Shown: positions 29,805-40,898, numbered from the stretch's first letter. The stretch is 48,865 bases of DNA from Phycisphaerae bacterium (GCA_018003015.1 JAGNEZ010000049.1:1-48865), one strand, 5' to 3'. Notes: generated by a model from the sequence alone, not told the origin. Translations and numbers: made by a program.

Positions 29805-32102
29805 ATGGGTTTGACGGCAACCGAAACAAAGGGGGGGATGCACGGCCAGCACGGGAGTCAGGTCGAACTCATCCTCGCTCAGATCGAGTCTTTGCCTACG
29901 CTCCCGGCCGTGGCGGTCCAGCTCCTGGAGCTCAGCAGCAACGAGCGGGCCTCGATCCGCGATCTGGTGCGGATCGTCGAATCGGATCCGAGTCTGGCTG
30001 CCCGGATCGTGTCCCTGGTCCGACGAGCGGACAAGACCGCACATGCCGAGACAGTCGAGCGAGCGGTCATTCTCCTAGGGTTCGACGCGGTCCGCAATCT
30101 GGCTCTTTCCATCCAGATCTTCGAGACATTCTCCCATCGGGTCGAAAGCGGCTCCCGCAGGTTCGACCGGCTCGCCTTCTGGAAACACTGCCTGGCCGTG
30201 GGATGCGCCGCCCGGCTGCTCTGTGACAAACGCTGGGCGACTCGGGGCGTCGGCGGATCAGAACCTGTGCCCGATCCGGAGCAAGCTTTCATCTGCGGGC
30301 TGCTTCACGATCTCGGCAAGGTGGTCCTGGCCGCCTGCTTCCCCAAGACGTACGACCGGGTGGTCGAGAAGAGCGATGCCCTGCTGGGCAGCCTGCTCGA
30401 CGTGGAACGAGAGCTCTTCGGGCTGGATCACACCCTGGCGGGACGCCGGCTGGCCACCTACTGGAAGCTGCCGACGATGATCGAGGAGTGCGTCTGGCTG
30501 CACCACCACCTGCCGGCTTCGACCCCCACGCAGATCGGCTTCCCCGGTCATGTCCGCCTGGTCCAGATGGCCGATGAACTGGTCCGCCACGTTCGAATTG
30601 GCTACTCGGGCAACTACCAGATGAGTCGATCGCTCTGGAGCGCCTTCGGCGTGCCCGGCGATATCCAGGCTGAAGTCGGCGCCCTCAAGACCGACTTGAT
30701 CGAACTGGTTGAATCGCGGGTCGGGCTGATGGGACTCGATTCCCTGACCTCCCAGGAAGTTTATGAGGAGGCTCTGGGCAAGGCCAATCAGGAACTGGCC
30801 CAGGTCAACTTCCGGTTGAGCGAGCTGAACGGGCGGCTGGCCCAGCGATCGCAGTGCTTCGATGCCCTGCAGGAGTTCAAGTCCGCCCTGGGAGATGAGC
30901 CGGATCACGAACACATCAGCCGGGCCATGCTGGCCGCCACCCGGGTATCCCTGCCAATGGTCCCCGCGGCCGCGGTCGCTTGGTCACCGTGTCGATCACT
31001 GGTCGTGATGGCCGTCACCCCGCGCCAGGCCGCCGAGGTGCATACCGACCTGATGCCCGACGATCTCGCTGGCGGGACCCTTGCCGACCGGGGCCCGACC
31101 GCACAGGATCCCGAGCAGCTGCTCAGCCAGGCGCTCCTTGACCGGTTGACGCCCCTGCTCGGCGCGCCCCCGGCTTGGTGCCAGAGCATCCGGAAACAAG
31201 GGCGACTCCTGGGCTGCATCGTTCTCACCGAAGCTCCTCCACCCAGTATCATGGAGACGCTGACCGTGCTGGCCGACTGGGCCGGATCCTGGCTGTACGG
31301 TGCCGAGTCGCGAATGACCGCTAGCCGCCTCAGCGAGGAAATGTCCGACATGAATCGCCGGCTCGTGGAGTCCCAGGCCGAGGTGGCCCGGATGCGCTCC
31401 CTGGCCACGGTGGGGGAAATGGCCGCCGGCGCCGCCCACGAGATCAACAACCCCTTGGCGGTCATCAGCGGCCGAGCCCAGCTCCTGCATCGAAATGCCC
31501 AGGATGATCAGACCCGCCGCGTCGCCGACCTCATCGCCGAGCATGCACACAAGGCCAGCGCGATCGTGAATGAGCTCATGGAGTTCGCCAAGCCCAACCC
31601 GCCGCAGCCCACCACCTGGCCGATCGCCCGGCTGCTGAGCGAGCTTCGGGCCGAGTGGCTGACCAAGGCCTCGCTCGGCAACGAGCAATTCCACCTCGTG
31701 CTATCGGACGACCTGCCCGACGTCCACGCCGATGCCGCCCAGGTGCGGAAGTTATTTGACGAACTGGTTCGCAATGCGGTCGAGGCCATGCAGGACCAGC
31801 CAAAGCCACTCTTGCTGATCAATTGCCATGCCAATGTAGCCGATGAGATGGTCGTGGTCAGGGTCGAGGATAACGGTGTAGGCATGGCTCCCGAAGTGCT
31901 GGAACGTGCTACCGACCCGTTCTTCTCCTCCCGAACCGCCGGCCGCGGCCGGGGGCTGGGCTTGTCCCGAGCTGCTCGGTATGCCGAGATCAACGGCGGC
32001 CAGATGCGACTGTCGAGCCGACCCAGGGAGGGGACGGTAGTGCTGGTGACATTGCCGACGGCACGCAAACCTGAGGAGTGCGGCCGACGGGTGGTTCGGT
32101 AG
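29805..32102 (+). CDS. HDOD-domain histidine kinase
   Basis: This is a signalling protein of 765 residues. An HDOD domain (about 15-260) begins LILAQIESLPTLPAVAVQLLELSSNERASI and includes GLLHDLGKVVLAACF. A helical linker (about 300-345) and a weak GAF-like region (about 350-490) follow. The kinase core has the H-box AAHEINNPLAVISGRAQLL with His545. The N-box is FDELVRNAVEAMQD and the G-boxes are VRVEDNGVGMAPE and GRGRGLGLSRAARYAE. GGGAGGG precedes the ATG. HDOD domains are known as regulatory helical bundles in two-component and cyclic-di-GMP systems. The neighbours are an HTH-receiver regulator and a receiver-like protein, so phosphotransfer to the first and a non-phosphorylated partnership with the second are likely. 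Confidence 0.9.
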   Translation: MGLTATETKGGMHGQHGSQVELILAQIESLPTLPAVAVQLLELSSNERASIRDLVRIVESDPSLAARIVSLVRRADKTAHAETVERAVILLGFDAVRNLALSIQIFETFSHRVESGSRRFDRLAFWKHCLAVGCAARLLCDKRWATRGVGGSEPVPDPEQAFICGLLHDLGKVVLAACFPKTYDRVVEKSDALLGSLLDVERELFGLDHTLAGRRLATYWKLPTMIEECVWLHHHLPASTPTQIGFPGHVRLVQMADELVRHVRIGYSGNYQMSRSLWSAFGVPGDIQAEVGALKTDLIELVESRVGLMGLDSLTSQEVYEEALGKANQELAQVNFRLSELNGRLAQRSQCFDALQEFKSALGDEPDHEHISRAMLAATRVSLPMVPAAAVAWSPCRSLVVMAVTPRQAAEVHTDLMPDDLAGGTLADRGPTAQDPEQLLSQALLDRLTPLLGAPPAWCQSIRKQGRLLGCIVLTEAPPPSIMETLTVLADWAGSWLYGAESRMTASRLSEEMSDMNRRLVESQAEVARMRSLATVGEMAAGAAHEINNPLAVISGRAQLLHRNAQDDQTRRVADLIAEHAHKASAIVNELMEFAKPNPPQPTTWPIARLLSELRAEWLTKASLGNEQFHLVLSDDLPDVHADAAQVRKLFDELVRNAVEAMQDQPKPLLLINCHANVADEMVVVRVEDNGVGMAPEVLERATDPFFSSRTAGRGRGLGLSRAARYAEINGGQMRLSSRPREGTVVLVTLPTARKPEECGRRVVR

Positions 32103-32335
32103 CCGCGGAAGCGATTGGACCGCACCGGCCGGCTTACCATCTTTGAGGTTCCATAGGACTTCGGGCTTCCCTGAAACCCCGACCTGCCGTCGGGGACAAA
32201 ACAAGATCCGGGCCAGGCGGGCTGTGGAGGCCTTCTCTCCTCTCCTCCTCCTCCTCGCTCTCGCGGCCAAAACGCCCGCCGGCCATTTTTTTCCCGCGGA
32301 AGCTCTGTCCGGTGTTCCCGGAAGAGGAAAGGCTG

Positions 32336-32884
32336 ATGCCCAGGCGACCAACCGAGATCCTGGTGGTGGAACAAGACGCCGACGTCGCCGAGATGATTTC
32401 CCAGTGCCTCGGCGAGGCGATCCAGGCCAACGTCAGCCGTGCCCGCACCGGCCAGGAAGCACTTCGCAGCGAGCTCACCCATCGCCACGACCTGATCATC
32501 ACCTCCTGCGACCTCCCGGACGGCGATGTCCTCGACCTGATGCGTCAGCTGCGCGTGTCCAACAAGTGCCCGGTCATCCTCTTGGCCGATAACCCCACAC
32601 CCGCCCAGCTGGTCCAGGCCATGAAACTCGGCCTCCGCCACGTGCTGCTCCGGCCATTCGACATGGTCGAGCTCGCCGAGGTGGCCCGCTCCGCCATCCG
32701 ATCTGCCCGTCGACGCCGCTGCCACCGCCTGCGCTACCAGCGCCTGCGGCTCCTCACCGCTCGAATCATCCGCGAACGCCGCGATCTGCGCCAGCGGGTC
32801 GATCTTATCTGCCAGGACGTGGTTCGATCCTATCGCAACCTCGCTCACAAGGTCGCGGAATCAGGCGTCCTGACCCAGGATTGA
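32336..32884 (+). CDS. Receiver-like protein lacking the phosphoacceptor aspartate
   Basis: The product is 182 residues with GAGGAAAGG upstream of the ATG. The first 120 residues show a CheY-like fold: ILVVEQDADVAEMI, DLIITSCDLPDGDVLDLM, and VLLRPFDMVELAEV. Alignment to canonical receivers puts Ser57 where the phosphoacceptor Asp should be (D-L-I-I-T-S). The conserved Lys is Arg106, and the first acidic residue is Glu12 with Gln13. Phosphorylation by the standard route is therefore unlikely. The C-terminal 60 residues are strongly basic helices (SARRRRCHRLRYQRLRLLTARIIRERRDLRQ), followed by a RNLAHKVAES motif. It follows the HDOD kinase by 233 bases on the same strand and overlaps the convergent membrane gene by 40 bases. 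Confidence 0.8.
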   Translation: MPRRPTEILVVEQDADVAEMISQCLGEAIQANVSRARTGQEALRSELTHRHDLIITSCDLPDGDVLDLMRQLRVSNKCPVILLADNPTPAQLVQAMKLGLRHVLLRPFDMVELAEVARSAIRSARRRRCHRLRYQRLRLLTARIIRERRDLRQRVDLICQDVVRSYRNLAHKVAESGVLTQD

Positions 32885-33485: not shown

Positions 33486-34025
33486 CTATGCGAGCCGGCT
33501 GTCGCCGCCGGCGTCGTGGCCGTCAGGGTTGATGTGCCGATCCGCGTACATCGCGGCCAGGGTCTCTCCCCACTCGCGCGTCTCCTCTGCCGCGTGTACG
33601 ACACCCACCCGAATGACGAGCAACAGAAGTGCCGCGGCTACCCCGCAGGACAGCCTTGTGATCTGGAACTGGATCCGCTGCCAGTAGGGCAGATCCGGAC
33701 GGCGGTGCAGCAGATCACGGGCCGCAGCCGATGCCCTCTCCGCCCGGCGAAGAAGCCGGAGAGCCCGTCCGTTTGCCCGGGCGTGCAGGTTGGGCGGCAA
33801 GGCCTGACCCTGCAACAGCGTCAGCGACGCCTGGACCCGGTTCACCCGCGATACCTGTGCCCGACAGGCCGGGCAGAGCTCGATGTGCCTCGACAGTCGA
33901 GCGGGCAGGGGGCCACCCTCGGCCGACCACTTCGCCAAATCCCCGCGCCTGCAGGAAGCGCCGTCATCACCGCGTCGAAAGTCATCGAGCCTCGGAGTCG
34001 CCTCCGCAGGAGGATTCCGTGTCAT
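33486..34025 (-). CDS. Anti-sigma factor with zinc-binding domain and one membrane helix
   Basis: The 179-residue product has the ZAS-like zinc motif near residue 45: His-x3-Cys-x2-Cys in LSRHIELCPACRAQ, with an upstream Cys in GASCRRGDLAKW. A membrane helix follows at about 130-150 (GVAAALLLLVIRVGVVHA), and a short acidic periplasmic tail ends the protein. It overlaps the ECF sigma gene by four bases (ATGA), the usual coupling for sigma/anti-sigma pairs. It should hold the sigma factor inactive at the membrane until a signal causes its release or proteolysis. Confidence 0.82.
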   Translation of the reverse strand: MTRNPPAEATPRLDDFRRGDDGASCRRGDLAKWSAEGGPLPARLSRHIELCPACRAQVSRVNRVQASLTLLQGQALPPNLHARANGRALRLLRRAERASAAARDLLHRRPDLPYWQRIQFQITRLSCGVAAALLLLVIRVGVVHAAEETREWGETLAAMYADRHINPDGHDAGGDSRLA

Positions 34026-34603
34026 CCCGTGACCTCCTCTCCAATGAGCTCGGCGAGTCTGATCACCGCTTGCCGACGGTACAGCCGGGCCGTGCCCGCC
34101 GTGATGCCCAGGACCCCCGCCACTTCGGCATACCGCATCTGCCCCAAATCCCGCAGAATGACGACTTCTCGGAGATGCCGGGGCAATTCGCTGATCGCCA
34201 GCCTCATCCGTTCGAGAGCCTCCCTCTCGTCGCAGACGACCGTCACCCCTGGCGGCGGGGGAAGATTGGCCCGTGATTCCACCAGCTCCGACCAGTGGGC
34301 CTTCTGCCGTTGCCGGGTCCGCAACGTCTCGATCGCCGCGTTGACCGCGATGCGATAGAAGTACCCCGCCGGGTTGGCCCCAACACCCTGCTGGCCGCGA
34401 GCGGTCAGGCGGCAGACGGCCGTTTGGTAGGCGTCAAGGACATCCGCTTCTGAACCCAGCATGCGCCATAAGGCGGTCAGCACAGCGGTCCCCTGGCCGC
34501 GGAGCAGACGCAGGATCCACTGCTGACTCTCGGCGACCTCGGCCGAGGTCAGCGACGCCAGGAGCGACCGCAACTCAAGTGGCAAGGCAGCAGCCTGGGC
34601 CAT
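34022..34603 (-). CDS. ECF-type RNA polymerase sigma factor
   Basis: The product is 193 residues from the ATG at 34603, with GAGGAG upstream. The frame extends to 34747 without a ribosome site. Region 2 is recognisable around RMLGSEADVLDAYQTAVCRL and NPAGYFYRIAVNAAIETLR. Region 4 is at LPRHLREVVILRDLGQMRYAEVAGVLGITAGTARLYRRQ, with the HTH for -35 recognition. The linker has a PPPPGVTV stretch. The partner anti-sigma gene overlaps downstream. The promoter-facing secretion operon on the other strand is the nearest candidate target; no shared -35/-10 signature could be confirmed. Confidence 0.88.
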   Translation of the reverse strand: MAQAAALPLELRSLLASLTSAEVAESQQWILRLLRGQGTAVLTALWRMLGSEADVLDAYQTAVCRLTARGQQGVGANPAGYFYRIAVNAAIETLRTRQRQKAHWSELVESRANLPPPPGVTVVCDEREALERMRLAISELPRHLREVVILRDLGQMRYAEVAGVLGITAGTARLYRRQAVIRLAELIGEEVTG

Positions 34604-34803
34604 GTCTGGCTCCTCGAAGAATGATGCGCCTGGGGGGCGGATGTATATGCCGACCTGGGCGGCAATTCTCATCTTGGCACGGCAGGGCCTGCACAACGCC
34701 CCTCTATTCATTGACGCCTGACGCCCGAATCTAACAGTCCGCGCCACAAAAACACCTTAACGCCAACCTGACTCAGGCGTCTTGGGACTGTGGAGGCTCC
34801 ACC

Positions 34804-35952
34804 ATGGCACCAACAGACATCTCCGCCGGCGAGGGCATCGTGCGGACGGTCGACGAGCTCCTGGCCCGGGCGATCACTCGAAGGGCCAGCGATATCCACG
34901 TAGAGCCCAGCGAGAGCGGCCTTCTCATCCGGTACCGGTTGGACGGCCTGCTACAGGATGTCGATCGGCTGCCCGCCCATCTGGCAGACAACGTCATCGC
35001 CCGCCTCAAGGTCCTGGCCGGCCTGCTGACCTACCGAAAGGACATTCCCCAGGAGGGGGCCTTCCGAGCGGGCAATGGGAGTAGGGAAACCACCCCAGGA
35101 ATAGACGTCCGTGTCGCCACCTTCCCCACCGTGTGCGGCGAACGGGCGGCACTCCGATTGATGTACGCGGTAGGCCAGGTCAGCGGGCTGGACGATCTCG
35201 GGCTTCCGCCAACCCTGTTGGCGCGGCTTCGGCGGGCGGCCGAGCAGCCCCAAGGCATGATCCTGGTCACCGGCCCCGCTGGCAGCGGCAAAAGCACTAC
35301 CCTCTATGCCTTGGCCAGGCATATCCGCACCGTCACGCCCGGCCGGAGCGTGATCACCCTGGAGGATCCGGTGGAGCAGCGGCTTCCCGGCGTGGCCCAG
35401 ATCCAGGTCCAACCCCACGGCGAGCTGGACTACGTCAGGGCCATGCGGTCCCTGCTCCGCCAGGATGTTCAGGTCCTGCTCGTCGGCGAAATCCGCGATG
35501 CCGAAACCGCCCACATCGTCGTGGAAGCCGCTCTGACCGGTCATCTGATCGTCAGTACGCTGCACAGCGGCGATCCGGCCGAAGCGGTCGTGCGTCTCCT
35601 CGAAATGGGCATCGCCCCGTACCAGGTGGCCGGCGCACTGACCCTGGTCTGCACCCAGCGGTTGCTCAGAACACTCTGTCCGACCTGCCGCGGCCAGGGA
35701 ACTTGCGACGTTTGCCTCGGCAGCGGCTATCTGGGCCGGACCGCGTGCGGCCAGGTCGCGGAAATCAACGACCGCCTCCGCCAGGCAATTCTGGATCGCC
35801 GGCCGGTGGGTGAGCTTCGACAGTTGATCAAGGCGTCGGGGCCGGATCTGGCCGCCGATGCCCGCAGACTGGTGGACAACGGGCGAACCACGCTCGATGA
35901 GGTCCGCCGGGTGTTGGGAACGCTGGATGGAGACCAGCAGGAAGACGTGTAG
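34804..35952 (+). CDS. gspE: Type II secretion / type IV pilus assembly ATPase (short GspE/PilB)
   Basis: This hexameric ATPase would power pseudopilus assembly. At 382 residues it lacks the N-terminal N1E domain; intact GspE has about 500-560. The protein begins directly at the N2E domain (ASDIHVEPSESGLLIRYRLDG). Walker A is GPAGSGKST (157-165), the Asp box VITLEDPVEQ follows, and Walker B is LLVGEIRDAE with Glu229. A tetracysteine zinc module is at CPTCRGQGTCDVC. GGAGG precedes the ATG. The GspF genes downstream on the same strand complete the assembly platform, but no secretin or GspL/M partners are in the window. Confidence 0.9.
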   Translation: MAPTDISAGEGIVRTVDELLARAITRRASDIHVEPSESGLLIRYRLDGLLQDVDRLPAHLADNVIARLKVLAGLLTYRKDIPQEGAFRAGNGSRETTPGIDVRVATFPTVCGERAALRLMYAVGQVSGLDDLGLPPTLLARLRRAAEQPQGMILVTGPAGSGKSTTLYALARHIRTVTPGRSVITLEDPVEQRLPGVAQIQVQPHGELDYVRAMRSLLRQDVQVLLVGEIRDAETAHIVVEAALTGHLIVSTLHSGDPAEAVVRLLEMGIAPYQVAGALTLVCTQRLLRTLCPTCRGQGTCDVCLGSGYLGRTACGQVAEINDRLRQAILDRRPVGELRQLIKASGPDLAADARRLVDNGRTTLDEVRRVLGTLDGDQQEDV

Positions 35953-36004
35953 AAACTGCAGGCGAACCGATCGGTCGCCCGCTGCGTGGTCGGAGGAACA
36001 ACCG

Positions 36005-37201
36005 ATGCCATGGTTTGAATACGAGGGTCTGAGTCCGGGAGGAACGGCCGTTGCCGGACGAATCGAGGCCGCAGGACATGACCGGGCCATGGAAAGCTTG
36101 GCCCAGATGCAGGTGCAGGTCCAACAGGTCCGCGCCGCGCCACGCCCCGCCCGCTCACCGACGCAGATCAGCGAGGACGATCTGATCTTCTTCAACGAGC
36201 AGTTGGCCTCGCTGGCGAAGGCGGGTATCGCCCTGGACGAAGGACTTGCCCAACTCGCCCGTGATGTGGAATCGCCCCGACTGCGGAGGTGGATTACCGA
36301 AGTGGTGACCGAACTCCGCGCCGGCGTTCCCATCGATCAGGCGATCGCCCGTCGGCAGGAGGGCCTGCCCCTGCTCTACGGCCGGGTAATCCAGGCTGGA
36401 ATTCAGACCGGCGAACTGCCGGGCGTTCTGCTGAATCTGAACCAGCATCTACGGCTGGTCAGCGAGACGCGACGGCTTGTCTGGGAGACCGCGAGTTACC
36501 CGATTCTCGTGGTACTCCTGGCGCTCACCATCACCTCGGGTTTCTTCGTTTTCGTCGTGCCGAGGATCAAGGAGGTCTTCCGGGATTTCGGCGTGGCCCT
36601 GCCCGGCCTTACCCTCATCATGATGTGGCTGTCAGATCACTACCTGCTCATCGTCCTGCTCGGCGTCCTCTTCTTCGCTGGACTGGCCTTCTTGTTCCAC
36701 AGCCTCAAGTTCTTCGAAGGGGGAGTGATCCTGCGGGAGCAAATCGTCATGTCCCTGCCACTTTTCGGTCGAATCAAGCGGGCCTCGCTCGTCGCTCGCT
36801 TCCTCAGGACCGTCTCCACCTCCCTCGCCTCAGGCCTGCCCCTGCCCCAGGCCATGCGACTGGCCGCCGAGTCGACCGGCCACCGCGCCCTCATCACCGA
36901 CGCCGATCGGCTCGCCCACGAGGTCGAGAAGGGCCAGTCCATCTTCGTGGCCAGTCAGTCTGCCCGGTTGATTCCACCGCTGTTCGGCTACTGTGTCCAG
37001 GTCGCCACCGGCCGGGAGACACTGCCTCTGGCTGTCGGCCAGCTCGCCAGGTCCTTCGAGAACCGGGCGGTCCACGTCCAAGGGCTGCTCCGTGCCTTCT
37101 TATTGCCGGCCATGATCATCGTCCTGGGTTGTTTCCTCGCGTTGGGTGTTGCGGCCATGTTCCTGCCGCTGGTGAGTCTGGTCAATTCTGTGAGCGGTTG
37201 A
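36005..37201 (+). CDS. gspF: GspF/PilC-type inner-membrane platform protein, first copy
   Basis: The product is 398 residues from the ATG at 36005, with GGAGG before it. The N-terminus (MPWFEYEGLSPGGTAVAG) is the usual GspF opening. Two T2SF domains are present at about residues 55-180 and 250-375. Each ends in a hydrophobic segment: YPILVVLLALTITSGFFVFVV in the first, and VLGCFLALGVAAMFLPLVSL at the C-terminus. A third hydrophobic segment lies at about 205-235. The assembly ATPase is directly upstream and a second GspF paralogue starts ten bases downstream. Confidence 0.92.
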   Translation: MPWFEYEGLSPGGTAVAGRIEAAGHDRAMESLAQMQVQVQQVRAAPRPARSPTQISEDDLIFFNEQLASLAKAGIALDEGLAQLARDVESPRLRRWITEVVTELRAGVPIDQAIARRQEGLPLLYGRVIQAGIQTGELPGVLLNLNQHLRLVSETRRLVWETASYPILVVLLALTITSGFFVFVVPRIKEVFRDFGVALPGLTLIMMWLSDHYLLIVLLGVLFFAGLAFLFHSLKFFEGGVILREQIVMSLPLFGRIKRASLVARFLRTVSTSLASGLPLPQAMRLAAESTGHRALITDADRLAHEVEKGQSIFVASQSARLIPPLFGYCVQVATGRETLPLAVGQLARSFENRAVHVQGLLRAFLLPAMIIVLGCFLALGVAAMFLPLVSLVNSVSG

Positions 37202-37211
37202 GGAAGAACAG

Positions 37212-38378
37212 ATGATCAGCACATTCGAATACCTGCTCATCGTCATCATCGGATCCGTCCTCATCGGGGCCATCCTTCTCGGACCGGTGCTGTGGCTGAT
37301 TCGGATCGTCGCCCGCGCGTTCCTCCCCGGCAACGTGGAACGCGGAGTGGTCTCCCAGATCGCCTCCGTTGTACGCCAGAATCTGCCGCTGGCAACAGCG
37401 GTGTCGCTCGGGGCGGATTCCGAGGACGGGCTGGCCGCCAGCTATCTCCGGCGAATTGCCCGGCTGCTCGGCCAGGGCCTTCCCCTGTCCGAGGCGGTGG
37501 CAAAGGGCTTCCGCGGCTGCTCCAGCCGGACGCTGAGCTTGATCGCGGCGGGGGAACGCAGCGGCCAGCTGTCCGTCGCCTTGGACGCGGCCGAGAGCCA
37601 TCTTGTTGAGCGATGGCGACGCGGCATGCGGCCGGGTGCGAACGCCACACTGTACCTCCTCGCCATGCTCGGAGCCACCAGCCTCGTGGTCGGCTTCCTC
37701 ATGGTGGGCATCATTCCCAAGTACGTGGAGATCTTCAAGGATTACGGCGCCACCCTGCCGTCCGAAACCATGGCGCTCATTGCAGTCTGCCGCTGGTTCG
37801 GAACCGGTACGCCTCCGGGCGGGCTGCTCGTGCTGCTGCTGGCGTCCGTCCTCCTCTTCTTGTGGGCCAGACCGCGGCGGTGGGGCACGCCCCGCTGGGC
37901 CACCCAGGTCGCCGACGCGATCCGCTGGCACCTCCCGGGTCTCCATCGGCTGACCCTGGGACAGGATATGAACCTGGTGCTGGAAACCATGCGCCAGGCA
38001 GTCGACTCGGGCATGGACTTGCCCCAGGCTGCCACGACAGCATGCGACCTGGACGTCAACACCTGCCTTCGCCGTAAGATGCGCCGCTTCGCGGAGACAC
38101 TCGAGACCGGTACGAGTCCGGGGCAGGCGGCCGTCGATGTGGGGCTCGGCAAGGTGACCGCGATGGCCTTGGCCAACGGTGAACGCACCGGCCGCATGAG
38201 CGAGTCCCTGCGCTTCGCGGCCGACTACCACTACGCCCTGGTCAGTCGTCTGTGGTGCGTGGTGCGGAATCTGGCCGTGCCCGTCGCCACCTTGTGCGCA
38301 GCTACCTTCGTCGGCTGGACGGTCATCGCCATGTTCAAACCGTTGATCGCGCTGATCGACGCGGCCTGCTCGATTTGA
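37212..38378 (+). CDS. gspF: GspF/PilC-type inner-membrane platform protein, second copy
   Basis: This is a second, diverged GspF-like gene (388 residues), ten bases after the first, with GAGGAAG before the ATG. The N-terminus has an extra hydrophobic segment (YLLIVIIGSVLIGAILLGPVLWLI) that the first copy lacks. T2SF-like features are GLPLSEAVAKGF, LSLIAAGERSGQLSVALDAAE, the long membrane segment VGFLMVGIIPKYVEIFKDYGATLP, and a second repeat with GMDLPQAATTACDLDVN and MALANGERTGRMSESL. It ends with a membrane segment and LIALIDAACSI. Two tandem copies next to a single ATPase are not usual for classical type II systems. They may form a heterodimeric platform. Confidence 0.88.
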   Translation: MISTFEYLLIVIIGSVLIGAILLGPVLWLIRIVARAFLPGNVERGVVSQIASVVRQNLPLATAVSLGADSEDGLAASYLRRIARLLGQGLPLSEAVAKGFRGCSSRTLSLIAAGERSGQLSVALDAAESHLVERWRRGMRPGANATLYLLAMLGATSLVVGFLMVGIIPKYVEIFKDYGATLPSETMALIAVCRWFGTGTPPGGLLVLLLASVLLFLWARPRRWGTPRWATQVADAIRWHLPGLHRLTLGQDMNLVLETMRQAVDSGMDLPQAATTACDLDVNTCLRRKMRRFAETLETGTSPGQAAVDVGLGKVTAMALANGERTGRMSESLRFAADYHYALVSRLWCVVRNLAVPVATLCAATFVGWTVIAMFKPLIALIDAACSI

Positions 38379-38394
38379 TGATAGGGAGATGGAG

Positions 38395-38784
38395 ATGAAA
38401 CTTCCGGAATATGGCCATAGGAGACGAGGCTTCAACAACATCGAAGTCATGGTCGGCCTGGCGATCCTCATCCTGCTGGGTACGCTCACGGCCAACGCAG
38501 TGCTCGACTACTACCGGGTCCGCACCGAGCAACACCGGCGATTGGCGGCGAGCTGGGCCGCAGCCGGGCAATTGGATCGATACCGGGCCGGTGCTCCCTT
38601 GGATTCCAAGCCGCCCGACGGACTGTGGTCGAACTACATCACCCTGACGACAAGGGTTCAGCCCGCCACCGGACAATGGCAGCAGTTTCGTCAGGTGACC
38701 GTCGTGGCCACCGTCCGGATGGCCGGCGGTCGGGAGATCCACGAACAGGTCAGCGGGTACCTTCCCCAGGAGGGCAAGCCATGA
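38395..38784 (+). CDS. Type IV pilin-like pseudopilin (GspI-like)
   Basis: The product is 129 residues with a class III signal peptide: a basic leader, Gly before the cleavage site, and GFNNIEVMVGLAILILLGTLTA with Glu5 of the mature protein. This is the mark of a prepilin peptidase substrate. The helix is followed by a short polar domain with VRTEQHRRLAASWAAAG. A minor pseudopilin of GspI type is the best fit by position. AGGGAG lies six bases before this ATG; an ATG at 38389 would place it too close. The next gene overlaps its stop by ATGA. Confidence 0.8.
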   Translation: MKLPEYGHRRRGFNNIEVMVGLAILILLGTLTANAVLDYYRVRTEQHRRLAASWAAAGQLDRYRAGAPLDSKPPDGLWSNYITLTTRVQPATGQWQQFRQVTVVATVRMAGGREIHEQVSGYLPQEGKP

Positions 38785-39296
38785 ACCGACATCCACGGCG
38801 CGCGATGATGCTGACTCAAGTGGTGACTTGGCTCCCACTCTTTGCCGCCGGCACCACGATCACCTTGCTCATCTCGGCCCAGTCGCTACGCCTGCAGGCC
38901 CGGGAACGCGCCCAGATCGCCACCGAGGCCGTGGTCCAGGATCTGGTCAGACGCATTCAGGCCGATGCTGGCAGAGCGAACCAGATCGCCGCTGCCCCTG
39001 CCGGCGCGGAGACAGCGACGGCCGTCGAAATGCTCTCCGCCGACGGCGCGGCAAAAGCGTCTTACCAGGTTACCGGGGGAACCGTAACCCGCACCCAGAC
39101 CACGCGCGACACGATCGACTCCAGGTACACGTGGAACCTGGGGAGCTGCTCGTTGAGCTTCCGCATCGAGTCCTGCGGGGCTTCGCCAGGCCTTCTCTGG
39201 ATGACCTTCACCGAACGTGTGCCCAGAGATCGGACCTCCAGCGCTGCCGAGCGATTCTCCACCACGGCCTTGGTGGGCAGGGGGGTGCAGCCATGA
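38781..39296 (+). CDS. GspJ-like minor pseudopilin
   Basis: The product is 171 residues, with AGGAGGG before the ATG. After a basic leader (MNRHPRRA) comes a hydrophobic segment (MMLTQVVTWLPLFAAGTTITLLISA). If cleavage occurs after the Ala, the fifth residue is Gln rather than the usual Glu. A helical stalk (ARERAQIATEAVVQDLVRRIQADAGRA) and a small globular beta domain (about residues 60-165) follow. The layout and position between I- and K-like genes argue for GspJ. Assignment is by architecture, not strong sequence identity. Confidence 0.65.
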   Translation: MNRHPRRAMMLTQVVTWLPLFAAGTTITLLISAQSLRLQARERAQIATEAVVQDLVRRIQADAGRANQIAAAPAGAETATAVEMLSADGAAKASYQVTGGTVTRTQTTRDTIDSRYTWNLGSCSLSFRIESCGASPGLLWMTFTERVPRDRTSSAAERFSTTALVGRGVQP

Positions 39297-39682
39297 GACC
39301 CGCCAAGTCCCACCCGCGGGGGGCCATGCTCATCCTGGCGGTCGCGTCAACCGGGATCGTCATGCTGCTCTTGTCCTGCTTGACACTCTTCGCCGGAGCC
39401 CGGTATCGCGACACGCAGACCACCCGCGTCCGCGTGACCGCCCGCGCCGCGGCCGACAGTGTCGCCGCTTACGCCCGCGAACGACTGCAGGAGTGGTCGG
39501 TAGCTGCCCCGGCGGCACCGGTCGAGGTGGACATCCGAGGGCTGTTGACGCCCGAGATGAATGGATCAGCCACCGCATCCGTGATCGCGGTCCGGGACCG
39601 CAAGGTCTGCCGGATCCGGGTCGAGGTCAGCCGCGGCCCCTCGGTCGTCGCCGATGAGTTCGATCTGGCGTTGGAGCCGTGA
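39293..39682 (+). CDS. GspK-like minor pseudopilin (short)
   Basis: The product is 129 residues and starts within an ATGA overlap with the J-like gene. It has a basic leader, RGAMLILAVASTGIVMLLLSCL as the first helix, and a stalk region ending in TTRVRVTARAAADSVAAYA. The first residues (RGAMLIL) read like the start of GspK proteins, which also lack the Glu5. GspK is normally about 300 residues, so this is a truncated or minimal version. No other pseudopilin or secretin gene follows; the next gene is on the opposite strand. Confidence 0.6.
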   Translation: MRPAKSHPRGAMLILAVASTGIVMLLLSCLTLFAGARYRDTQTTRVRVTARAAADSVAAYARERLQEWSVAAPAAPVEVDIRGLLTPEMNGSATASVIAVRDRKVCRIRVEVSRGPSVVADEFDLALEP

Positions 39683-39878: not shown

Positions 39879-40679
39879 TCAGGCCCCGCGCCGACGAAGG
39901 GCAGCGAGACCACCCAGAGCCAGTAGAATCAGTGTAGCCGGTTCGGGAATGACTTCGGCGAAACTCGTGCCAACTCGCAGGTTGTCTACCTCCTGCGTGC
40001 CCGCCAGCAAGCCGCTGGTGGCGCCCAGGGAGCCCTGTCGGAGAGCATACGCCAACGCGTTGGCGTTGGCGGAGGGACCATTTGTCACACTGAGCTTGGT
40101 GTTGCCGTCTTCGCCCAGGGCGGGGTCCGGATCGACCCACAGTTCACCCTGGCCTGTCGCGTTCTCGTAGGAGGCCACAATCCGGTGCACCGTGCCAAAA
40201 CTGAAGCCGGTCGCCCAGATAGCCCCCGCACCCGTGCCGGTCGGACCGCTGCCGCTGCCCTGCCAGACGTAGAAGGTGTAGTCGGATCCGGCGAAGGGCG
40301 TCACGCCGATCTTCGTGGGGAAGACGTTCGCGGCATTCTTGAAGTGGGCAAAGTAGTCAGAGCCAGTTACCGTTCCCGTGACGCTGACCAGGAAGCTGGC
40401 ATACCACTTGTCACCGGCTCCCTGGGTCACGCCGGCGGGCGTGTTCACGTCTTCGCTGCTAGCGGCCGCGTTGACCAGCTTCGCGGCGTTGCCCGTGGCG
40501 ATGGTACTCGAGACGACCTGGATCGGGTTGGCCCCGGCGCCGCTGTGGGCAGTCCACCCTCCCTGACCCGCAAGATTCCCCTGGGTGTAGGAATCGAAGT
40601 TCTCTTCAAAGAACAACGTTGCCATGGCCGAAGTGGAGAGAATCGCCACCACGCCGACCGCCAATAGGTATCTGTTCAT
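39879..40679 (-). CDS. PEP-CTERM sorted secreted protein
   Basis: The product is 266 residues from the ATG at 40679, with GAGGAGAAG upstream. A signal peptide (YLLAVGVVAILSTSAMA) is followed by a beta-rich domain with FFEENFDSYTQGNLAGQGGW near the N-terminus. That opening resembles concanavalin-like/LamG-style extracellular domains, and VHRIVASYENATGQGELWVD fits the same fold. The C-terminus is a classic PEP-CTERM tag: EVIPEPATLILLALGGLAALRRR, with the PEP motif, a hydrophobic helix and an Arg-rich end, recognised by exosortase. No exosortase gene is in the window. A strong promoter and a 213-base leader precede it. Confidence 0.9.
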   Translation of the reverse strand: MNRYLLAVGVVAILSTSAMATLFFEENFDSYTQGNLAGQGGWTAHSGAGANPIQVVSSTIATGNAAKLVNAAASSEDVNTPAGVTQGAGDKWYASFLVSVTGTVTGSDYFAHFKNAANVFPTKIGVTPFAGSDYTFYVWQGSGSGPTGTGAGAIWATGFSFGTVHRIVASYENATGQGELWVDPDPALGEDGNTKLSVTNGPSANANALAYALRQGSLGATSGLLAGTQEVDNLRVGTSFAEVIPEPATLILLALGGLAALRRRGA

Positions 40680-40733
40680 CCCACTTCTCCTCACAAAGAC
40701 TGAACCGTCGGTCTCGCCGATCTGACTGAAGCC

Positions 40734-40751
40734 GTCCTGCGACCGCAGGAC
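40734..40751. repeat. Perfect inverted repeat in the PEP-CTERM leader
   Basis: GTCCTGCG and CGCAGGAC are perfect eight-base arms with a two-base spacer, 55 bases upstream of the ATG on the minus strand. In DNA it could be an operator. The two-base loop is too short for a good RNA hairpin unless the arms open. Confidence 0.45.
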
Positions 40752-40898
40752 ACGATCGGAACCAGGTTTACGAACCCGCTTCTTCGACTCTATGGGGGGA
40801 AGCCGCGGCCAAACCGAGATGAACGCCCCTTTCCCGCTCGACCGGTGCGAGTCTCGACGCACTTGGCCGCCAGGCGCTTCCTTCACACCCAGAGCGGT

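Follow-up and report, generated by a model that had tools for sequence, protein, structure and literature searches.

A conserved Phycisphaerae operon with a short motor ATPase and two platform paralogues, a probable assembly engine for a type IV filament

The closest described relatives of the operon reported here are the T4aP core (PilB-PilC-PilT), the T2SS (GspC-M), the ComG pilus of monoderms (ComM), and the Tad/Epd pili (TadB and TadC). Denise et al., surveying the type IV filament superfamily, report paired platform genes only in Tad and some archaeal systems, with one T2SSF domain each in TadB and TadC, which arose by gene fission (PMC6668835). Our operon comprises six genes in the order E-F1-F2-I-J-K and shares with Tad a tandem platform gene pair, but F1 and F2 have two T2SSF domains each and E is not CpaF/TadA-like. 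Like the T4aP, it combines a PilB-type ATPase, a PilC-type platform, and a minor pilin operon, with PilT linked in four relatives; unlike the T4aP, it has two full-length platforms and an ATPase without the N1E domain, and its locus lacks PilM/N/O/P/Q and, in most cases, a major pilin. The T2SS has proteins of the E, F, I, J, and K types, the GspJ fold, and a K without Glu5 in common with it, whereas the operon locus lacks C, D, G, H, L, M, and O, has no N1E and two F proteins, and encodes platforms that are PilC-like. ComG is likewise a small ATPase/platform/minor-pilin operon with an N1E-less ATPase and no secretin or L/M, but it has a single platform (ComGB), and the operon differs further in lacking the major pilin ComGC and in having a diderm host and an ECF sigma partner. 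As far as we found, two full-length platform paralogues have not been described in a bacterial system, and a literature search of partial coverage returned no published description of the operon.

The window, meaning the whole 48,865-nucleotide stretch of Phycisphaerae bacterium DNA that was analyzed, contains all six genes on the plus strand at positions 34804 to 39682. E (34804 to 35952) encodes a 382-aa assembly ATPase of the GspE/PilB type. It is followed after 52 nt by F1 (36005 to 37201; 398 aa), an inner-membrane platform protein with a canonical N-terminal domain and two T2SSF domains, and after a further 10 nt by F2 (37212 to 38378; 388 aa), a second platform paralogue in which a hydrophobic segment replaces the GspF N-domain ahead of two T2SSF domains. 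The conserved start of F1 is MPWFEYE at 36005; a mechanical open reading frame (ORF) call at 35858 is too early. Another 10-nt gap separates F2 from three minor pseudopilin genes, which encode a GspI-like protein (I, 38389 to 38784; 131 aa), a GspJ-like protein (J, 38781 to 39296; 171 aa), and a short GspK-like protein (K, 39293 to 39682; 129 aa). The first-pass annotation of this DNA had described two tandem GspF paralogues, three short pseudopilins coupled by ATGA overlaps, and no secretin. Both paralogues and the short pseudopilins are present, and ATGA overlaps join I to J and J to K, the only such junctions in the operon. Among the operon's translated neighbors in the window we recognized no secretin, GspC/G/H/L/M, or peptidase, and GspO is likewise absent locally. 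Neither the window nor the other operon loci that we read completely showed a recognizable GspC, GspD, GspL, GspM, or GspG next to the operon, and no PilM-N-O-P-Q alignment complex was recognized at the operon loci read. A gene for a PEP-CTERM sorting-domain protein (39879 to 40886, minus strand) immediately follows the operon on the opposite strand and is kept in the nearest relative, L037. Genes for a large HDOD and histidine-kinase-like protein (29805 to 32102) and then a response-regulator-like protein (32312 to 32884) are found upstream, in window coordinates, of the sigma/anti-sigma pair described below, and such genes also adjoin the operon in L037.

The first-pass annotation had suggested looking for the gene order in related genomes, and we assessed how widely this arrangement occurs. 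An initial I profile matched 73 of 397 class genomes, and F2 lay directly 5' of I in all 30 loci fetched from the I-profile search. With a broader I profile, 396 Phycisphaerae genomes yielded 114 hits in a bimodal distribution (~80 at E <1e-17, the rest >1e-11), which places the carriers at ~80 of the 396. A protein search returned eight loci with an E of 58 to 96% identity, the next being at most 49%; the order E-F1-F2-I-J-K is found in seven of the eight, and in the last (L038) the assembly ends after the F1 start. The order F1-F2-I-J-K recurs in 63 loci of different genomes, with E in front in 59 (among the 63, L200 stops after J, and K is uncertain in L223). The six-gene order spans many families, is beyond chance, and appears restricted to Phycisphaerae: all clear hits in a phylum-wide sample belong to this class, and the operon was not recognized in the other planctomycete classes sampled, which gave weak hits only (E 1e-10 to 1e-8). 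The single weak hit inspected from another class (G709) was rejected because it is a complete T2SS that includes GspG; a second weak hit, with the genes in order (G293), was rejected as an ordinary filament locus with a GspG-type gene.

The motor is short, as first proposed. E matches the T2SSE family over its whole length (E=1e-94), and its alignment to the GspE equivalog model begins only at model position 108, from which it follows that N1E is absent. Its Walker A motif (GPAGSGKST) is intact, and it has a compact zinc motif (C-x2-C-x5-C-x2-C). Nearly all of the 59 E ORFs share the short form, with at most 73 residues before the N2E core except in one ORF that runs on upstream, so N1E is missing throughout. 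The TadA model matches E at 2.5e-6 only, against strong GspE/PilB matches. The best match of the F1 profile in the window's genome is T4aP PilC (264 versus 175 to 205 bits), as is that of the F2 profile (196 versus 103 to 132 bits); by profile score, both platforms resemble T4aP PilC more than any GspF. An AlphaFold model of F2 (pLDDT 71) matches PilC of the T4aP architectural model and the cytoplasmic domains of EpsF/OutF. The operon holds the assembly ATPase, inner-membrane platform, and class III prepilins that define the type IV filament superfamily. What sets it apart is the pairing of an N1E-less motor with two full-length paralogous platforms, and we file it as a variant of that superfamily, not as a T2SS. 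The PilB-type ATPase in Caballeronia/Trinickia (Burkholderiaceae; L086, L089, L094, L113, and other loci) is also short (~390 to 405 aa), without N1E, and begins at the N2E domain. It falls, however, in a separate clade with different neighbors (it adjoins coaE), and its loss of N1E is independent.

The three pseudopilins differ at position +5, which in the window is Glu in I, Gln in J (R-A|MMLTQ), and Leu in K. GspK proteins normally lack Glu5. Across orthologues, position +5 is always acidic in I and never Glu in K, a pattern that would fit a tip as in GspI/GspK. Outside the order to which the window belongs, J has Glu here in most families; inside it, the residue is Gln, Thr, Tyr, His, or Glu. 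Because most J orthologues outside that order keep Glu5, the Gln is a secondary, lineage-specific loss; the first-pass observation of Gln holds for the window. A non-acidic residue here could weaken the incorporation of J in the window's lineage. At 129 aa, compared with 467 to 857 aa for K-position genes elsewhere in the same genome, K is indeed less than half the usual size. The best hits of the I and K hidden Markov models (HMMs) in one unrelated planctomycete T2SS were its I-position and K-position genes, respectively. HMM assignment of I, J, and K against the T2SS pseudopilins of the window's own genome was not possible, because the N-terminal helix drives the hits. With an AlphaFold model of J (pLDDT 77, 8 sequences), the top rows in VIA-align were XcpW, EpsJ, and GspJ (Z 8.0 to 9.2, against ~5 for unrelated chains), and Foldseek gave no match below 1e-3.

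In some relatives the operon carries additional genes. A PilT gene lies directly after K, overlapping or abutting it, in four loci of one sampled lineage (L189, L191, L198, and L209), and two of these PilT proteins scored 358.8 and 368.9 bits against the curated TIGR01420 cutoff of 319.1. The window genome's own PilT is unlinked to the operon, and that genome has no close counterpart of the linked form (best, ~38%). The Walker A motif of the linked PilT (L189:7807-8832, and the other three loci) is GSTSQGKTTT, which is unusual when set against that of PilT in the window's genome, GPTGSGKT. Since the platforms are PilC-like and PilT is linked in relatives, the filament is probably T4P-like, and possibly retractile, rather than a T2SS pseudopilus. 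The first-pass idea of a new surface-fiber or secretion device is borne out in part, for a distinct, conserved device that is not a T2SS fragment, with a T4P-like filament favored over a secretion pseudopilus. A prepilin of ~290 to 315 aa, of a kind other than GspG, follows K in three loci (L174, L194, and L217), and a linked major pilin is absent from most. In thirteen loci of one lineage (L187, L188, L189, L191, L196, L198, L200, L202, L209, L211, L218, L219, and L221), E and F1 are separated by genes for one or two exported proteins of unassigned family. These proteins (~320 to 460 aa) have a signal peptide and are duplicated in L189 and L198, and neither of the two tested matched a Pfam family; they are possible accessory proteins or substrates.

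Our preferred reading, which we consider reasonably probable, is that the operon encodes a dedicated assembly engine, made up of a motor, a platform, and a tip, that would build a type IV filament predicted from these genes. Because E lacks N1E, the domain that would bind GspL/PilM, we propose that hexameric E docks straight onto the F1/F2 platform. The platform would then lift out a filament whose first subunits, I, J, and K, form a tip complex. Its major subunit would come from another locus, out of the genome's large prepilin pool, and be cut by the single PilD-type peptidase; the filament would either stay periplasmic or exit through a secretin that the resident T2SS/T4P also uses. Retraction would be driven by an operon-encoded PilT in at least one lineage, and the operon would be activated through a dedicated ECF sigma/anti-sigma pair. 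The peptidase is probably shared with other systems, as probably are the major pilin and the outer-membrane pore. We put forward more tentatively, as plausible rather than probable, the fuller claim of a previously unrecognized machine restricted to Phycisphaerae, with an F1/F2 heteromer platform, a direct N1E-less motor, no GspL/PilM-type adaptor, its own ECF sigma factor, and a borrowed pilin and pore. If two full-length platforms do work without an adaptor, the coupling of motor to platform becomes testable, as does the sharing of major pilins and secretins among the filament systems of one cell.

The window corresponds to contig C49 in an assembly of 6.86 Mb (98.7% complete), in which secretins were hit six times, PF00437 was matched 17 times, and T2SSF was matched 16 times. 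This genome has three T2SS-type loci (C3; C15:2-15 kb; and C15:29-54 kb, in which no E was identified), an MSHA/T4P-like locus (C2), a T4aP locus with PilB, PilT, and PilC (C98), and a Tad locus (C2), all named from sequences read by eye. Another locus carries PilM/O/P-like genes, and a single A24 (PilD-type) peptidase with the N-domain was found. Judged by these matches, every part missing from the operon exists in trans. That the device is built without GspD/L/M, as first claimed, is therefore true of the operon and not of the cell, which has secretins and complete T2SS, T4aP, and Tad loci elsewhere. A full GspC-M set supplying the missing parts, together with a lack of conservation here, had been named as grounds against a separate device; the missing parts are present elsewhere, yet the operon is strongly conserved. 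Secretins occur elsewhere in all 65 operon-bearing genomes tested, which allows sharing without proving it, and no particular secretin is tied to the operon by present data. Because every tested carrier has at least two, their co-occurrence is uninformative as a test of independence; secretins may be universal in the class. In this genome (C15:28901-29401) and in relatives, secretin domains also lie inside very long open frames, of 1908 aa here and >4000 aa in some relatives.

The resident T2SS loci bear on an alternative in which the operon is an accessory cassette of one of them, an ECF-controlled swap that would equip the shared G/D/C/L/M with another motor, another platform, and an I-J-K tip and alter the exported cargo. 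We regard this as unlikely. Three T2SS loci in the same genome, the GspJ-type fold of J, and a set of I-J-K without G/H, which amounts to a tip only, are what it would lead one to expect, but E lacks the very domain bound by GspL, the platforms lie nearer to T4aP PilC than to GspF, and the PilT linked in relatives is normally missing from a T2SS.

Somewhat less likely still is a ComG-like pseudopilus for DNA uptake, as in monoderm competence systems, that would use the genome's DNA-import proteins. The ComG ATPase is also N1E-less and E covers nearly the entire ComGA model (E=1e-65), although the GspE and PilB models score higher; a retraction ATPase is linked in some loci, although there are two platforms instead of one, most loci have no linked major pilin, and no linked com gene was recognized. 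For the assembly engine that we favor, any function in capturing polymers or taking up DNA would be speculation. The planctomycete polymer-capture model derives from other classes (PMC5394234), and crateriform structures carry pili in other planctomycetes (PMC8882080, PMC5394234). Described Phycisphaeraceae are without crateriform structures and some have fimbriae (PMC8882080); fimbriae have been reported on cells of Phycisphaerae, and the operon could account for some of them.

Divergent from E in the window is an ECF sigma factor gene (34022 to 34747, minus strand) with sigma-70 regions 2 and 4, next to a gene for an anti-sigma-like protein (33486 to 34025, minus strand) with an H-x3-C-x2-C motif and one transmembrane segment. 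Both are conserved partner genes: the sigma gene is found at ~38 of the 63 loci, nearly always divergent from E, and the anti-sigma-like gene with its motif almost always accompanies it, so that a divergent pair adjoins the operon in ~37 loci. A sigma factor adjacent to a zinc anti-sigma-like membrane protein is what would be expected of an ECF sigma/anti-sigma pair. Between sigma and E, the exact motif TAAC-N16-CGTC faces E in 20 of the 38 sigma-bearing loci and sigma in 28 of the 38, far above the chance expectation of 0.003 per region per strand, and it is mostly missing from loci without a nearby sigma gene. The window has a promoter-like copy towards E (34758 to 34781, plus strand), 22 nt 5' of the start codon, and no exact copy towards sigma. 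Because of this divergent distribution, the sigma factor likely autoregulates and controls the operon. A stricter motif search in 33 genomes gave mostly matches at the operon itself. In several genomes the controls produced comparable counts, and the genes matched elsewhere are therefore leads only, as a candidate ECF sigma regulon. TAAC-N16/17-CGTCTTA is found 5' of membrane fusion protein genes in three genomes (L256, L259, and L263), of MoxR-type ATPase genes in two (L257 and L265), and of an ABC transporter in two sister genomes (L260 and L261).

The envelope-type nature of these genes in some genomes could be taken to favor a periplasmic endopilus, a secretin-free structure of I, J, and K only or with a short periplasmic fiber, acting on the cell envelope; in the loci that were read completely, no outer-membrane component was recognized next to the operon. 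Secretins are nevertheless present in all carriers tested, the off-operon matches are few and near the control counts in several genomes, and we consider this reading improbable compared with an assembly engine for a type IV filament.

In trees made by a quick method with SH-aLRT support only, the operon's E (support, 99), F1 (99), and F2 (100) each form one clade, and their branching is broadly alike. Between the window and L037, dN/dS is 0.11 for E, 0.12 for F1, 0.24 for F2, 0.28 for I, 0.27 for J, 0.12 for K, and 0.19 for sigma; all six operon genes are under purifying selection. The missing genes, the short J and K, and the lost Glu5 of J might suggest a decaying T2SS remnant, but this selection, the class-wide conservation of a fixed gene order, and dedicated regulation make decay very improbable, and we reject it. 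The operon is instead conserved and appears to be old and separately regulated. One record labeled Alphaproteobacteria (L042) has the Phycisphaerae operon and groups with the Phycisphaerae loci; its label is probably wrong.
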